Assembly (NCBI GenBank): GCA_002712305.1
Contig: PATE01000097.1
Span: 6,516-15,936 of the forward strand
DNA: 9,421 nt
From: Gemmatimonadota bacterium
GTDB lineage: Bacteria; Latescibacterota; UBA2968; UBA8231
Direction: 5' to 3'
The notes beneath the pieces are model-generated. The model searched no databases, was not told the origin of the DNA, and saw nothing but the letters and a program-made list of their open reading frames with translations. Positions 2,907 through 9,025 of the stretch are shown here, piece by piece. The position numbers were made by a program, and so were the translations under genes. Numbering within the stretch: position 1 is the first letter of the stretch; every line of letters begins with the position of its first letter.

Positions 2907-3734
2907 TCACGCCGATGGCGCGGCTGCCATGCGGGGCTCGGCGAGAGACCGCCAATTGTCGTAGTAACGCTGCGCTCTCGCCGGCAGGCCTGGGCGAATG
3001 TTGTCAGCCAGAAGCCAGCGGTGATCGCCCTTCTCACCCGGATCGTAATCGGACCGGTGGTCGATCATGCCCCCCATCAGTGTTGAGCGCCGCTTCATCG
3101 CCTCTGGCATCACTCCCCGATGAATGCTGTTGCCGTTCCAGAAGATCGTCTGCCCCTTGCGAAGATCGATCCGGGTGGCGCCTGGGATCTCACCACTGCC
3201 GCCCTGCAAAGCTTCGTGTTCGCGATCTGTACGGAAACGATTCTGGCTGCCCGGTACGATCCATAGACAGGGATCGTCGACCAGGGCCATGTGCCACTTC
3301 ATGAAGTGCTTCCGGTAGCGACCGAGGATCTCCATCTCCTCCTCATAGCTGCCATCCTTCACCTGGCCTCCAGTATCCCGATGCCAGCCGATCACGTATT
3401 GGCCCTGCACACAGCACAGGTGTACCCAGCCCATGCGCAACTCGTCACCGAGGAAGGACTGCAGATAGCGGGCGATCGGTTCGGATGCGAGATACTGGGC
3501 GAAGGCGGGTTCGGCGAACTCAGGTGCCACAAGACCGCTGATAAAGGCCGGTTCCACGGCCTCGCCTCCAAGGTGGATTCCGTCTGGGTCATCGACGACC
3601 TCTCCCGATCGGACTCGTGCCGCAACGCGGTCAGCGGCAGCCGCCAGTTCCTGAAGCAGAGCCGCGTCCACGGCGTCGTCGACGATGAAGTAGCCCCGAT
3701 CGTGGTACTGGCTGATCTGTGCCTTGCTGGCCAT
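2907..3734 (-). CDS. Phytanoyl-CoA dioxygenase (PhyH) family protein with canonical HxD site
   Basis: This 275-residue protein belongs to the PhyH family of Fe(II)/2-oxoglutarate oxygenases, which hydroxylate small molecules using O2 and 2-oxoglutarate. The N-terminus QYHDRGYFIVDDAVD (about 9-23) is the usual PhyH opening. The iron ligands are visible as H118 and D120 in GWHRDTGG and as the distal H205 in SIHRGV; R215 or R216 in KRRSTL is the likely 2-oxoglutarate anchor. LWIVPGSQN (157-165) is the family's conserved turn. The length is normal for the family and the gene looks intact. The start is ATG at 3734-3732, chosen because AAAGGA (3745-3740 on this strand) sits 5 bases upstream; an upstream ATG at 3740 and a TTG at 3752 are in frame but lack a site. 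It is transcribed divergently from the URO-D-like gene and convergently with the PL22-like gene. The substrate cannot be deduced; human PhyH chemistry should not be assumed. Confidence 0.85.
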   Translation of the reverse strand: MASKAQISQYHDRGYFIVDDAVDAALLQELAAAADRVAARVRSGEVVDDPDGIHLGGEAVEPAFISGLVAPEFAEPAFAQYLASEPIARYLQSFLGDELRMGWVHLCCVQGQYVIGWHRDTGGQVKDGSYEEEMEILGRYRKHFMKWHMALVDDPCLWIVPGSQNRFRTDREHEALQGGSGEIPGATRIDLRKGQTIFWNGNSIHRGVMPEAMKRRSTLMGGMIDHRSDYDPGEKGDHRWLLADNIRPGLPARAQRYYDNWRSLAEPRMAAAPSA

Positions 3735-3910
3735 CGACATCCTTTCTATCAATCTGTGCGGCCGGGCCCTGCCCAGGCGCTGCGCTCATGGTCATGACTC
3801 ACAAGATAGCCTCATCGATTCGGCGAGGACATCACGGCGATGTTGCCGATCAGTCGCTGCTTCTGCAAGATTCCAGGAAGGCCCGAAATCTATCGTTGAT
3901 CGAGAGAAGC
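3735..3910. promoter_or_regulatory. Divergent intergenic region, probable promoters for PhyH (-) and URO-D (+)
   Basis: About 176 bases separate the starts of the two divergent genes, so both promoters and any shared operator should lie here. I could not pick a convincing -35/-10 pair. There is an imperfect palindrome TCATGGTCATGA near 3786-3797 and a small possible stem, CGGC-gatgtt-GCCG, near 3836-3849. These are weak candidates only. The plus-strand frame is open through this region but reads as non-coding residues with no similarity to URO-D proteins. Confidence 0.35.
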
Positions 3911-5038
3911 ATGAGCTACATCCGCCCCAACTACGACGTTGCCCGCGAGAAAGCGGGATTCAGTTGGCAGGTCAGTGGCTCCTACCTCTCCTGCGTGGAA
4001 CTGTCCGGGATTCCCGTGAAGGACTTCTACACGCGACCTGCAGCGTGTATCGAGGTGTACCGCACGGGGCGAGAGCGGATGTACGAGATGTTCGGAGAGT
4101 GGTTGCCACCGCTGGCACCGGCAACGCCTCCCATCAGCTACATGCACGCCAACTGCCTTGGCGCAGAGTTAATCTTCGTCGAGGGGGGTGAGGTCGGACA
4201 CACACATCCCTTCGACTCCCTCGAGCAGGCCATCACGCGACTCCAGGAACCCGTCGACTTCGCCACTTCAGGAGACACGCCGTTCTACCTCGATTTCTGG
4301 AAGCAAATGCGGGACGCCTTCCCGGATGAGAAGGTTGGTTTCAGCTTCGGCGTCGAAGGCCCCATCACGACGGCGTGGGAACTGCGGGGCCAGGGATTCC
4401 TTACAGACCTGTTCGATGAACCCGAACGGGTGAAGCAGTTCCTGCAGCTGACGACGGCCAGCATTGTCGATGTGTTCCGCTTTCGCGCCGAGCTCGACGG
4501 GATTCAGTTCCCAGATCCGAGTGCCACAGGGATGGTCGACGACATCGCCAGCTTTGTCTTGGCCCATATGTTTGCAGAGTTTGTTCTGCCATACTGGGAG
4601 CAGTACTACGCTGGCATCACCACCGGCATCCGGCGAGCCCACGTGGAAGATCTGCGTCGGGAACAATTGCGGTCTCTGCAGGACGTCGGGCTGAGTTACT
4701 TCGATCCGTCCATCTCTCACAAGCTCGACCCACCCATGCTGCGTGATGAGATGCAGGTACCCTTCGGCTGGCGCTTGGGGAGCTTCCACTATCAGGACAT
4801 GGATGAAGAGTTGGTGCGCGACATTCTATTTCAGGCCGCAGCAGATGGGGCCAGTTCGCTTTTCACCATCATCGAAGGAACCCTCTCCAACGACGAGGGA
4901 CACGACAAGGTGATGGCCTTCAAGAAGGCAGGAGAAGAGGCAGAGAGGCTTCTCGCGGAAGGTTGCAGTCGTCAGAAGCTCGGAAGTTATGTTACCGAAC
5001 ACGGTAAGGAGCGGTTCTGGGACTACTTCCCGGAGTAG
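3911..5038 (+). CDS. Uroporphyrinogen-decarboxylase-like (URO-D / cobalamin methyltransferase superfamily) protein
   Basis: This 375-residue protein has the length and layout of the URO-D superfamily, a TIM-barrel fold covering heme-pathway decarboxylases and zinc-dependent methyltransferases (MtaA, CmuA type) that move methyl groups to or from corrinoids or thiols. Recognisable parts are FGVEGPITTAWELRG (146-160), a segment like DDIASFVLAHMFAEFVLPYW (210-229) before the catalytic edge, and the C-terminal helix after LFTIIEGT (317-324). In methyltransferase members a zinc H-x-C follows this block; here the matching position reads RRAHVEDLR (241-249), with the His but no Cys, so metal binding may differ. 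It lacks the arginine-rich N-terminus expected of true HemE, and no heme genes are nearby, so a catabolic methyltransferase-like role is more likely. The start is ATG 3911, preceded by weak GAGAGAAG; the frame continues upstream to 3719, but that would overlap the PhyH start and adds unrelated residues. It is followed 69 bases later by a PhyH gene, probably co-transcribed. Confidence 0.75.
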   Translation: MSYIRPNYDVAREKAGFSWQVSGSYLSCVELSGIPVKDFYTRPAACIEVYRTGRERMYEMFGEWLPPLAPATPPISYMHANCLGAELIFVEGGEVGHTHPFDSLEQAITRLQEPVDFATSGDTPFYLDFWKQMRDAFPDEKVGFSFGVEGPITTAWELRGQGFLTDLFDEPERVKQFLQLTTASIVDVFRFRAELDGIQFPDPSATGMVDDIASFVLAHMFAEFVLPYWEQYYAGITTGIRRAHVEDLRREQLRSLQDVGLSYFDPSISHKLDPPMLRDEMQVPFGWRLGSFHYQDMDEELVRDILFQAAADGASSLFTIIEGTLSNDEGHDKVMAFKKAGEEAERLLAEGCSRQKLGSYVTEHGKERFWDYFPE

Positions 5039-5107
5039 ACATGTCTCTCTTCGGCGCAGTAGTCGATCCGTTCACCGCGCAACTCCAACGACAGCAGGTG
5101 ATGAGCG

Positions 5108-5911
5108 ATGAATCAGCGCGAGAAGTTCCTCTTCGACCTCAACGGCTATCTCGTCCTGGAAGACGTCCTGTCCCCCGACGAGGTTGCTGCCGCTAACGCG
5201 GCGGTCGAACACCACGCCGACCTGATCGGCAACCGCGACCCCGGTCTGTCTGAGGATGCGGTTGGGTTGAGAGGCGACGAGGGGCGTGGCGAGTTCCAGC
5301 AGAATCCGCTGACCTTCGACCGCCCCTGGTGCGACCCCTTCCGTCGTATGCTCGCCCATCCGCGGGTGATCGACGTGTTCAACGAGGTCCTGGGCCCGGG
5401 CTTTCGTCTGGACCATGGCCCCGTGCTGATCCGCATGCGGCATGGCACGGAGGGCCACCGGCTGCATGGCGGTACGACCTTCGATCCAAGCCAGTTCCAT
5501 CACTTCGCTCACGGCCAGGTGCACGCCGGATTGTGTGTCGCCGCCTGGCAGATGACGGACGTGAAAGACGGGGATGGGGGCTTCGCCTGCATTCCGGGGA
5601 GCCACAAGGCCAACTACCGGCCGGCCGTCGAGATGCTTCGCCTCGAGCAGGATTGGGGTTGCGTGCATCAGGTCGTGGCCGGCGCCGGTTCGGTCGTGTT
5701 CTTCAACGAAGCGCTGATCCATGGCACTCTGCCCTGGCAACCGAAGGATCGCGAACGGCGTTCGATGCTGTTCAAGTATTCGCCCGGTTTCATCTCATTT
5801 GGGCCGCCTCACGAGCAATGCCCGATCACCGACGCCACCCCCGAGGAGAAAGCACTCTACGCCCACCCGTCCCGTCCGGGACGGACGCACCTTGAGGGCA
5901 GCGAAACGTGA
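5108..5911 (+). CDS. Phytanoyl-CoA dioxygenase family protein with an H-G-G metal motif
   Basis: This 267-residue protein belongs to a PhyH branch that I recognise from planctomycete-type and other uncultured marine bacteria. It starts with FLFDLNGYLVLEDVLSPDE (7-25) and contains GPGFRLDHGPVLIRMR (96-111), DGDGGFACIPGSHKANY (154-170) and FFNEALIHGTLPW (198-210) followed by ERRSMLFKYSPG (216-227). The proximal iron motif, normally H-x-D, reads RLHGGTTFD (118-126): H120 is followed by two glycines. The distal His is H205, and R217 or R218 would bind 2-oxoglutarate. Loss of the carboxylate is what separates iron halogenases from hydroxylases, but D126 could supply a ligand, so chemistry is open. 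The start is ATG 5108 with AGGTGA (5096-5101) 6 bases upstream. The stop TGA at 5909-5911 overlaps a GTG that begins the decayed URO-D gene (GTGA), a sign of former translational coupling. The family call is firm; the substrate is unknown. Confidence 0.85.
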   Translation: MNQREKFLFDLNGYLVLEDVLSPDEVAAANAAVEHHADLIGNRDPGLSEDAVGLRGDEGRGEFQQNPLTFDRPWCDPFRRMLAHPRVIDVFNEVLGPGFRLDHGPVLIRMRHGTEGHRLHGGTTFDPSQFHHFAHGQVHAGLCVAAWQMTDVKDGDGGFACIPGSHKANYRPAVEMLRLEQDWGCVHQVVAGAGSVVFFNEALIHGTLPWQPKDRERRSMLFKYSPGFISFGPPHEQCPITDATPEEKALYAHPSRPGRTHLEGSET

Positions 5912-6291
5912 GCAATGTGAAGCCACGAGATCGCGTCGTCGCCGACTACTGCGCCGACTGTCGAGTTGCCTTTGGCCCGGGAATGGGACTATGTGCGCGT
6001 GCCCGTTGTGCCAGCAGATGTCGAACACCCTCGATTGCAGACGACGGGACCTTTCTCGTGGATTGACCGCGAAGGAGGTCACGATGAGTTGTGCCTCTTC
6101 GGTGGCGTGTCCTGCCACAGCCTGATCGAGGAACCGGCCAGTACCGTGCGGGAGGAAGTGCGCTACGCATCGAGCACGCGGCCCCAGGTGGTGGCCTGGT
6201 CATCGCCACGAGCAACGTCGTACAACCGGGCACGACGCTCGAAAACTACGAGGCCATGCGGCAGACGGTTCGGGACTTCGGCAGCTATTGA
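5908..6291 (+). pseudogene. Collapsed remnant of a second URO-D-family gene
   Basis: The GTG at 5908 overlaps the PhyH stop (GTGA) and opens with SNVKPRDRVVA, a typical URO-D-family N-terminus (K/T-P-R-[ED]-R-V-x-A). That frame then becomes non-homologous and stops at TGA 6064-6066. From about 5966 the neighbouring frame (+1) gives family-like sequence, including VPVVPADVEH and DELCLFGGVSCHSLIEEP (about 6083-6136), then EEVRY. Near 6165-6170 the similarity moves back to the first frame, consistent with one lost base, giving RIEHAAPGGGLVIATSN and VVQPGTTLENYEAMRQTV, which match the ggG-(I/V)-x-x-(T/S)-N...QPGT-x-x-EN signature at the C-terminus of catabolic URO-D-like proteins. It ends at TGA 6289-6291. 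Total length is about 128 codons against the usual 330-380, so roughly two thirds of the gene, the whole barrel centre, is missing. The C-terminal identification is good; the frame path through 5940-5966 is less certain. Confidence 0.6.
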
Positions 6292-6423
6292 GCCGTTTGA
6301 TGTGACAACGTCGCTCTGAAAAAAACTGTTTGCGGTGGCAAGCCGGATTACTCTTCATAAATAGTATTGGATTCTGTCCAGCCTACGTCGGTCGAAATCA
6401 CAGCCTCACCCTGAAGGAGACTC
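6292..6423 (+). promoter_or_regulatory. Leader and probable promoter region of the exported dehydrogenase gene
   Basis: This 132-base gap contains the most AT-rich stretch of the neighbourhood (about 6316-6377), with an A-run at 6319-6325 and TTCATAAATAGTATTGG at 6354-6370. TAGTATTG at 6362-6369 resembles the TAnnTTTG -7 element of FCB-group promoters at most positions, but no TTG is present at the expected -33 distance, so this is a weak call. A strong ribosome binding site, AAGGAGA (6414-6420), precedes ATG 6424 by 3 bases (6-7 from the core). Confidence 0.35.
6414..6420 (+). promoter_or_regulatory. Strong ribosome binding site for the dehydrogenase
   Basis: AAGGAGA lies just before ATG 6424. 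It is the best Shine-Dalgarno in the window and decides the start, placing a clean signal peptide at the N-terminus. Confidence 0.7.
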
Positions 6424-8787
6424 ATGGGTTCGCAACGTCGAAGAGCTGTCACTTTGTTAGTGGCTTTCCTTGTTGGCTCAGCGGCGGATGCACAGGAAGC
6501 CTATCCACCAGGCACGTATCAGCTCACGCCACGCATCGATCTGGGTCTGCAGCCCGTTCGTGTCCACATCCCACCGCAGTTCGATCATCTACCCCAGGAT
6601 CTGACCCTCAACCTGCCCCCGGGATTCAGCGCCAGTGTCTACGCGGCTTTTAAATCCTTCCATCGTCCTCGCTTCATGGCCTTCGATGACGACGGCGTTC
6701 TGCATGTGGCCAACATGAACGCCGATGAGATCCTGGCACTGCCTGATCGCGATGGAGATGGTGTAGCGGATGAAGCGATCGTGGTGGCGACAAACTTCGA
6801 ACGGCCCCAGTCTCTCCAATTCTTCCAGGGCGATCTCTATGTCGGGGACAGTCCGCGCATCCTTCGTTATCGCGATGAAGATGACGACGGCATCTATGAG
6901 AAACGGGAGGTCTTCGTCAGCAACATCCCCACCGGCGGGTGGCACTCCACACGCACCCTGGTGATCGATGAACCTGGCGGCAAGATGTATCTGAGTGTCG
7001 GCTGGCCTTGCGATATGTGTCGCACCGAGGGTTTGGAACGCGGTACGATTCTGCAGTTCAACCTCGACGGTTCCGGGCGTCGAGTTTTCGCATCGGGTGT
7101 GCGAAATGTCATCGGCATGGCCATCCACCCCACTACGGGAGAACTGTGGGGGACGAACAACGGCCACCAGCATGAAGGGATCGCTTCCCCTCCGGAGTGG
7201 GTCGACGTGATTCGCGACGGTGGATTCTATGGCACGCCCCTGGCTTACGGCTATCAGTCCTGGACCGATTTCACCAACCCAAGTTATCGCGAACTTCTAC
7301 CGATCACGGCAGCCGACTCGGCCCGCGTTGCCACCATGGAGCGGCCGGCGGTCCTGCTTCCGGGCCATACGGCACCCATGGGTATTCACTTCTACGATCA
7401 CGAGCAGTTTCCAACGCGATACCGGCACGCTGCTTTTGTCGCGCTGCATGCGGGTCACGCCTACCTGGCCCCCGTCGAGGGGTATTCGGTCGTTGCCCTG
7501 TTCGCCGAACCGGATGGCAGCCAGGCCCGAGTTGCAGACTTCATCACCGGTTTCCAGGCAGGCGTCGACATCGAGGATGTCTGGGGCCGTCCCCATGGCC
7601 TGATCACCGATGCCGATGGCAGCCTCTATGTCACCAGTGACGACGACAACCTGATGATCCTGCGGATCGACCATGGGCCGGTGGTCGCCGATTGGCAGCG
7701 CCACAACATGCCCGACTCGCTCACCGTCGGTACGCCACTGGACATCGATGCCTTGGTCCATGTCGAGCGCTCACCTGCGGATGGCTCTCCCCTTGAGGTG
7801 ACGGCCGACTTGAGTCAGATAGGCGGCCCCTCCGATGTTGCACTCTCTCCGACAGGCGATGCGGACTTCCGACTCCAGTATCGCATGGTCGTGCCCCCGA
7901 GCCTGCGTCCCGGCCTCAAGAGGGTGAGGGTGCGTGTTCATCCGTCGAATGCCACCGAGGAACAGGATGTCCACATGGCGTGGCAGATCGCGGTGTTACC
8001 CGACAGGCAGGTCGAGGACTATGTCATTTACGACGATGAGTTGGCCGCCGGTTGGACCCTTGCCAACAAGACCGCCTTCACGACGCGCCCCTTTAATCTG
8101 CAGAACGACGAGTTCGTCTTCAGGGGCGAGAGGTCCGTCTTATTCCGCACGATTGCCGGCGACTGGGACTGGGTCCTCCGCTTCCGCCCCCCAGACCCTG
8201 TCGACCCGAGCGGTTACAGTGATATCAGTTTCGCCTTCCATGCTGGGATCGATGACTGGTGGCGGGGCGAGAAGTTCAGCCTCTACATATTTGGTCATCT
8301 GATCAATCTAGTCGATGAAGGATATGTTGATCCGACCGCGAGGGATTGGCAGAGGGTGAAGATCCCTCTGACGCGGTTCGGACCGGCAGCGCCACTGAAG
8401 GAGGTCACCTTCGGCGGCGACTTCTATGCGGCCATGTATCTGGATGAGATTCGATTGGAGGGTGTCGCGACACCCACAGCGATCGCCGACGAAACATCGA
8501 CGTCTCCATCCGCTTTTGCGCTGGCGCAGAGTTATCCCAACCCCTTCAACAGCGATACGGTCATTGAGTTCGTCGTTCCGGCCACCGACCGCGTGCGCCT
8601 GCGGATCTACAATCTGTCGGGCCAGGTCGTAGCCGATCTCGTCGACGAAGCCCTGGTGGCCGGCGCGCATCAGACCCGATGGGATGCGCTCAATGATGCG
8701 GGACAGCCGGTGGCCAGTGGCGTTTATCTGTACAGATTGCAGGCTGGAGAGTTGGAGACGTCTCGCAAACTCGTACTTGTGCGATGA
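6424..8787 (+). CDS. Exported PQQ-type sugar dehydrogenase (sorbosone/glucose dehydrogenase propeller) with T9SS sorting domain
   Basis: This 787-residue protein has a signal peptide at 1-23 (RRR, hydrophobic core, cleavage after ADA). Residues about 60-417 form a six-bladed propeller of the soluble glucose/sorbosone dehydrogenase type, enzymes that oxidise sugars with pyrroloquinoline quinone. Key marks are RPRFMAFDDDGVLHVAN (81-97), GGWHSTRTLVID (171-182; H174 is the likely catalytic base), the CDMC pair (196-199), GVRNVIGMAIHPTTGELW (225-242; R227) and RPHGLITDADGSLYVT (389-404). DRDGDGVADE (108-117) and DEDDDGIYE (151-159) look like calcium-binding loops. About 425-525 is Ig-like; 530-680, starting YVIYDDELAAGW, resembles a carbohydrate-binding jelly roll. 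Residues 697-787 carry SYPNPFN, LRIYNLSGQVV and SGVYLYRLQAG, a type IX secretion sorting domain, so it should be exported and attached to or released from the cell surface. AAGGAGA and ATG 6424 fix the start. The gene is intact. The electron acceptor and sugar are unknown; a non-PQQ NHL-type propeller is the alternative. Confidence 0.85.
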   Translation: MGSQRRRAVTLLVAFLVGSAADAQEAYPPGTYQLTPRIDLGLQPVRVHIPPQFDHLPQDLTLNLPPGFSASVYAAFKSFHRPRFMAFDDDGVLHVANMNADEILALPDRDGDGVADEAIVVATNFERPQSLQFFQGDLYVGDSPRILRYRDEDDDGIYEKREVFVSNIPTGGWHSTRTLVIDEPGGKMYLSVGWPCDMCRTEGLERGTILQFNLDGSGRRVFASGVRNVIGMAIHPTTGELWGTNNGHQHEGIASPPEWVDVIRDGGFYGTPLAYGYQSWTDFTNPSYRELLPITAADSARVATMERPAVLLPGHTAPMGIHFYDHEQFPTRYRHAAFVALHAGHAYLAPVEGYSVVALFAEPDGSQARVADFITGFQAGVDIEDVWGRPHGLITDADGSLYVTSDDDNLMILRIDHGPVVADWQRHNMPDSLTVGTPLDIDALVHVERSPADGSPLEVTADLSQIGGPSDVALSPTGDADFRLQYRMVVPPSLRPGLKRVRVRVHPSNATEEQDVHMAWQIAVLPDRQVEDYVIYDDELAAGWTLANKTAFTTRPFNLQNDEFVFRGERSVLFRTIAGDWDWVLRFRPPDPVDPSGYSDISFAFHAGIDDWWRGEKFSLYIFGHLINLVDEGYVDPTARDWQRVKIPLTRFGPAAPLKEVTFGGDFYAAMYLDEIRLEGVATPTAIADETSTSPSAFALAQSYPNPFNSDTVIEFVVPATDRVRLRIYNLSGQVVADLVDEALVAGAHQTRWDALNDAGQPVASGVYLYRLQAGELETSRKLVLVR

Positions 8788-8795
8788 TGTGGGTC

Positions 8796-8826
8796 GGAGC
8801 CGCCGGCACGCCTGAGCTGGCGCTCC
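8796..8826 (+). terminator. Stem-loop after the dehydrogenase gene, possible terminator
   Basis: GGAGC-c-GCCGGC pairs with GCTGGCGCTCC around an 8-base loop (8808-8815), making an 11-pair GC-rich stem with one bulged C and one G-U pair. It starts 8 bases after the TGA at 8785-8787, the usual place for a terminator. There is no T-tract after it (CCCC follows), so it may be a weak or factor-assisted terminator, or an mRNA 3' end protector. Confidence 0.4.
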
Positions 8827-8836
8827 CCCCTGGACC

Positions 8837-9025
8837 ATGAAAGAGCACCGATCTCCCAACCCCCTTGTCGACGTACGGCGCCCACAACACGACGCGGTGG
8901 CCGACTTCAATCCCACCGGCTTCGTCTGGCGGCCCGTCGAGGGCGCCACGTCATATGAACTGAAGGTTGGGCCGGATCCGGCCCTCACATCTCAGGAGAC
9001 CCGCACCTACACGGTGACCAAAGGT
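8837..9025 (+). pseudogene. Orphan N-terminal fragment of a heparinase II/III-type (DUF4962-like) protein
   Basis: From ATG 8837 the frame gives about 62 residues that read like the N-terminal Ig/FN3-like domain (DUF4962) of bacterial heparinase II/III-family proteins. The telltale segment is FNPTGFVWRPVEGATSYELK (about 8906-8965), matching the family's N-P-P-G-F-x-W-x-P-V-x-G-A-x-S-Y-x-L pattern, followed by GPDPALTSQETRTYTV. The similarity stops near 9018-9030, where the DNA becomes the antisense of a kinase gene. The rest of the lyase, including its catalytic domain, is absent. The plus-strand frame stays open to the window end, but beyond 9025 it only mirrors the kinase. No ribosome binding site is evident before 8837 and the usual signal peptide is missing, so expression is doubtful. 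The DUF4962 assignment rests on one short segment. Confidence 0.5.

Follow-up and report, generated by a model that had tools for sequence, protein, structure and literature searches.

The PhyH superfamily of Fe/2-oxoglutarate oxygenases is marked by a 2-His-1-carboxylate triad, HxD...H, from which several described enzymes depart. SyrB2 and CytC3 read HQA in place of HxD, and their distal motifs (FWSTLMH and FWSNTMH, respectively) put a Ser four residues before the distal His (position -4). In SyrB2 this Ser is residue 231, which we take to line the chloride pocket. HygX, the closest described relative of the protein considered here, has been deposited, according to the titles of its PDB entries, in an apo form, with iron (4zpi), with nickel and 2-oxoglutarate, and with hygromycin B added to these two (4xcb). 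The HygX study (PNAS, 2015) reportedly describes varied metal coordination. Together with AviO1, EvdO1 and EvdO2, HygX has a proposed role in orthoester formation (review, PMC8234114). In AspH, finally, Fe is bound by two His and a water, and the enzyme hydroxylates (PMC6817910 and PMC13168262).

The locus and its kinship with HygX

The stretch of DNA analyzed here (the window) is 9,421 nucleotides long and corresponds to bases 6516–15936 of contig C16 in a 4.77-Mb assembly of 146 contigs, in which there are 152 PhyH matches. Its relevant features, in window coordinates, are:

2907–3734, minus strand: second PhyH protein (ORF, PhyH match) with a canonical HRD (H118-R-D) and a Gly four residues before its distal His, a contrast member
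3719–5038, plus strand: URO-D-like ORF (PF01208, 37 bits) just upstream of the focal gene, start codon uncertain
5108–5911, plus strand: focal gene (ORF, PF05721, AF2 model), encoding a 267-aa PhyH-superfamily (Fe/2-oxoglutarate oxygenase-like) protein of the HygX-like LHGG branch
5465–5473, plus strand: H120-G121-G122, proximal iron His kept and HxD Asp changed to Gly
5483–5485, plus strand: D126, previously suggested as a substitute ligand, not conserved
5708–5710, plus strand: E201, invariant acid (Glu or Asp) by branch conservation, candidate third iron ligand or second-sphere acid
5720–5722, plus strand: H205, distal iron His
5756–5761, plus strand: R217-R218, of which R217 is the expected 2-oxoglutarate-binding Arg

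The focal protein matches PF05721 (PhyH) with 54.4 bits against a gathering score of 22, which bears out the family membership given in a preliminary description of this DNA. The residues named there (HGG at 120–122, H205 and R217/R218) are at exactly those positions in the translation, with H120 encoded by CAT at 5465–5467, and the neighbor at 2907–3734 does keep HRD, as was also stated. With HGG in place of HxD and H205 kept, the focal protein is without the triad, but this does not exclude it from the superfamily, as HygX and SyrB2 lack the triad too. In the AF2 model (mean pLDDT 95.2, pTM 0.92) the jelly-roll strands around H120 and H205 are intact.

By both sequence and fold, HygX is matched above other PhyH structures. 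The first match of the single focal protein in the PDB (phmmer) was HygX, at an E-value of 2e-7, and up to an E-value of 10 there was no halogenase among the matches. With a profile made from 85 rows of the branch, HygX scored 6.5e-26, followed by DhiD at 7e-14; SyrB2 reached 2.7e-9, the best stretch of that match lying in the C-terminal part. The AF2 model is closest to HygX in VIA-align (Z 23.8, 2.7 Å over 214 residues; other PhyH-type enzymes at Z 21.3 and below) as well as in Foldseek (E 5e-17), where the first sixteen matches are all HygX chains. The HygX entries matched were PDB 4xc9, 4xca, 4xcb and 4zpi. The focal protein also has the combination of LHGG and Glu at -4 from the distal His, and the ten best HygX matches in the source genome are all members without HxD. 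In a FastTree tree computed without the motif columns, 47 of the 48 members lacking the HxD acid sit in one clade of 49 (support 93), inside which HygX is nested, with a support of 92 for its grouping with an HTG/HRG/HSG subgroup and 73 for the surrounding clade of 45. The HRD neighbor joins the tree at the base of the LHGG branch. Since HygX, solved with the same motif, is already known, the novelty of the focal protein is modest.

The branch without an HxD acid

When 133 PhyH domains, taken from stretches of the source genome, are aligned, the focal HGG occupies the HxD column, in which 104 other domains (among those scorable) read HxD. In the alignment of 85 branch relatives, on the other hand, the triplets are HGG (51), HGS (17), HGA (6), HEG (5) and single others including one HGD, and 84 of the 85 have no acid at position 122. 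The same is true of 110 proteins in a wider set of 111, which were chosen for their resemblance to the focal protein, come almost entirely from one class and cover about 25–80% identity to it. H120, H166, H205 and R217 are invariant across these 111 proteins, and R218 is found in 100. Judged by this conservation, HGG characterizes the family and is neither a point mutation nor a chance finding; the preliminary description had supposed as much of the LHGG motif. A branch member (E 1e-30 or better) occurs in 46 of 60 sampled genomes, with up to about 30 per genome; nearly all of the genomes that hold one belong to the same class, and the sampled genomes elsewhere in the phylum have none.

Could the branch simply have decayed? 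Loss of one ligand is a usual first step towards a pseudoenzyme, in this case a PhyH fold without iron chemistry, and a related double-domain ORF has a degenerate domain without either His. Such a fate is nevertheless very improbable for the focal protein, given that both His, the 2-oxoglutarate Arg and the acid at residue 201 are invariant over the whole span of identities above, and that the entry titles of HygX, which shares the motif, give Fe and 2-oxoglutarate as bound.

The double-domain ORF just mentioned (L040, 584 aa) is one of two such PhyH proteins, the other (L043) having 608 aa. The N-terminal domain of L040 has lost both iron His (SGG ... TTIRG), while its C-terminal domain retains them. 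This pairing of a degenerate and an intact domain recalls scaffold/catalytic pairs such as TlxI/TlxJ. Outside the branch, a PhyH protein at G000:C109:39000-40600 (L158) reads HQH for HxD, with Ser at -4. Tandem arrays of two or three branch genes (L193, L194, L205, L207, L208 and L215) mix the Glu type with an MDGAQTHG type.

The acid at residue 201

What, if anything, takes the place of the missing Asp? The preliminary description had put forward D126 or another acid. D126 is an unlikely ligand, as it is conserved in only 70 of the 111 branch proteins and has no matching Asp in the HygX alignment. Another acid, E201, is a strong candidate as judged from conservation: all 111 proteins have an acid at residue 201, which is Glu in 98 of them and Asp in the other 13. 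Twelve of the 13 with Asp carry one extra residue, which widens the spacing to the distal His from four residues to five. No column of the genome-wide alignment is more enriched for acid in the branch than residue 201 (98%, versus 6% in HxD members), and none has lost more acid than residue 122 (0% versus 100%). At the -4 position of the 104 HxD members of the source genome there is no Glu, and Asp occurs in six. DSSP assigns strands 196–200 and 205–208 in the AF2 model, joined by residues 201–204; E201 and H205 are thus predicted to share one hairpin.

Within the source genome, Glu at -4 is exclusive to the acid-less branch. This exclusivity fails beyond it: three SyrB2-like proteins of related genomes (L216, L217 and L219) combine an intact HQD with Glu at -4, and a homologue on a Cupriavidus necator plasmid (L224) has HHE together with Glu at -4. 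(For L216 and L219, the best PDB match is SyrB2, at E about 1e-23.) In these four proteins, to go by their motifs, the Glu cannot be a simple replacement, since an acid is present at the HxD site. Such relatives fit either a second-sphere role for the Glu or an ancestor that had both acids before one was lost. When the traits at 122 and 201 were mapped on the tree, the first trait changed three times and only one independent pair had support, so the swap appears to be essentially one event in one clade, not repeated co-evolution. Fisher's test gives a tiny p value for the association, but with the swap on essentially one clade this value is not a valid probability and does not amount to statistical proof of co-evolution.

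Because of the relatives with both acids and the single-clade swap, the case for E201 as a direct iron ligand is about evenly balanced. A relocated facial triad, His120 ... Glu201-x3-His205, may have replaced HxD...H, the carboxylate having shifted from the HxD motif to the one around the distal His, possibly by way of an ancestor with both acids (as in the Cupriavidus HHE plus Glu), and the arrangement having then multiplied within an uncultured bacterial class whose genomes carry many copies of it; we hold this whole sequence of events to be a serious contender, if a little short of an even bet. If E201 were shown to bind iron, the branch would provide a clean natural example of a metal ligand moved between motifs with function kept.

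Alternatively, the focal protein might be a two-His oxygenase of the AspH type, in which E201 belongs to the second sphere, a water molecule occupies the free ligand position and the reaction is a hydroxylation. AspH itself is the precedent, and the coexistence of Glu at -4 with an acid at the HxD site in L216, L217, L219 and L224 indicates that the Glu need not be a ligand. However, AspH belongs to a different family, and the acid at 201, kept as strictly as both His, suggests more than a peripheral role. This alternative overlaps with a water-mediated role of E201, except that E201 would not help to hold the metal; it is a reasonable possibility but the less probable one.

The site is most likely either a rearranged or a two-His iron site. 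On balance, the focal protein is probably an active-site-intact Fe(II)/2-oxoglutarate oxidase of a HygX-like PhyH branch, in which E201 replaces the HxD Asp directly or via water and which oxidizes a sugar-like substrate rather than halogenating it. Iron would be held by H120 and H205 and 2-oxoglutarate bound by R217, and E201, on the hairpin of the distal His, would take the place of the missing Asp, either by binding the iron itself or by way of a bound water. Activation of O2 would then lead to hydroxylation, oxidative dealkylation or oxidative cyclization of the substrate.

One branch member of the source genome (L049, G000:C6:21637-22089) reads HGQ and FFGGVAHGT, with acid at neither site; it counts against the proposed replacement of the Asp by E201, and is by its motifs the best candidate in that genome for a truly open iron site.

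Halogenation, substrate and comparison with known systems

HxG and HxA are the motif of WelO5, BesD and SyrB2, and the Asp of HxD is indeed Gly (G122) in the focal protein, with H120, H205 and R217 intact. It was on this pattern that the preliminary description proposed a radical halogenase, with G122 leaving a halide site on the iron. The branch-wide loss of the Asp on which that proposal drew is real, but the likeness to radical halogenases found no support, and halogenation is a most improbable activity here. The nearest relative is HygX, which is not a halogenase. The chlorinating-enzyme model TIGR01762 gives the focal protein 17.2 bits against a cut-off of 226.3, a cut-off exceeded by nothing in 11 related genomes, and fragments of SyrB2 and CytC3 find their matches in the source genome among HxD members and not in the LHGG branch. 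All 111 branch proteins have an acid in place of the small Ser of SyrB2 and CytC3, and a Glu in this position would presumably occupy the halide site or repel the halide. Nor does a two-His site alone give halogenation: AspH hydroxylates and, given chloride, showed no halogenase activity (PMC6817910), and the carboxylate-to-Gly exchange by itself was not enough to make a BesD-related hydroxylase halogenate efficiently (PMC13244439).

The distinction matters because HxG or HxA in a PhyH protein is easily taken for a halogenase signature, a rule that the LHGG branch breaks. Genomes of one uncultured class hold from several to about thirty copies each, and motif-based mining would list hundreds of false halogenases. 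An acid four to five residues before the distal His offers a simple discriminator.

What might the substrate be? The window neighbors of the focal gene, including the URO-D-like ORF (which has weak similarity to MtaA/CmuA methyltransferases), were found beside none of eight orthologous or related loci, and the remaining neighbors of those loci vary from one to the next, so there is no conserved gene partner. At two of the closest loci with flanks (L061 and L062, 78–79% identity), a DHDPS-family aldolase gene lies about 9 bases downstream, with an NAD-dependent epimerase beyond, and a 64% relative (L065) is found near an alpha-L-fucosidase. Latescibacteria have been described as algal polysaccharide degraders (PMC4454575). 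Because of these orthologue neighbors, the polysaccharide degradation and the substrate of HygX, a sugar-like substrate is plausible for the focal enzyme. As to HygX-like oxidation of an aminoglycoside or sugar substrate, with orthoester formation, what the gene context suggests is limited to sugars.

Other parts of the window deserve mention. The region 6424–8787 encodes a large secreted-type protein with a DUF7133/glucose-sorbosone dehydrogenase-like propeller and a C-terminal tail resembling a sorting domain. At 575–1671, an endonuclease/exonuclease/phosphatase-like gene appears to be split over frames (start part 575–1342; C-terminal part, with SDHRPVVAQL, 1414–1671), which suggests a frameshift or an assembly error. 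Over window positions 4231–9019, a region that contains both the focal and the GSDH-like gene, contigs C16 and C67 share 4,789 bases with 7 mismatches (99.85% identity), and then diverge; either these are variants from different strains, or the ends of the contigs carry a recent duplication.

How does the branch compare with known systems? Poribacteria, as here, have a large expansion of PF05721 genes, mostly of unknown function, and the excerpted account of these (PMC3909097) does not describe the LHGG branch or its motif. Human AspH resembles the focal protein in that the HxD carboxylate is missing from a 2-oxoglutarate oxygenase that still hydroxylates (PMC13168262), but it belongs to another family of the superfamily. 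SyrB2 and CytC3 share with it the PhyH superfamily, the missing HxD Asp and the two His and Arg that are kept, but differ in reading HQA for its HGG and in having Ser, not Glu, at -4, and are kin to the HxD members. HygX is only about 20–25% identical, and its substrate and reaction are therefore not transferable; it also comes from an antibiotic gene cluster, whereas the focal protein has many copies in a Latescibacterota-type genome. On the other hand, HygX is alike in its PhyH fold, its LHGG motif, its NEALMHG, which places a Glu four residues before the distal His, and the Arg that follows that His.
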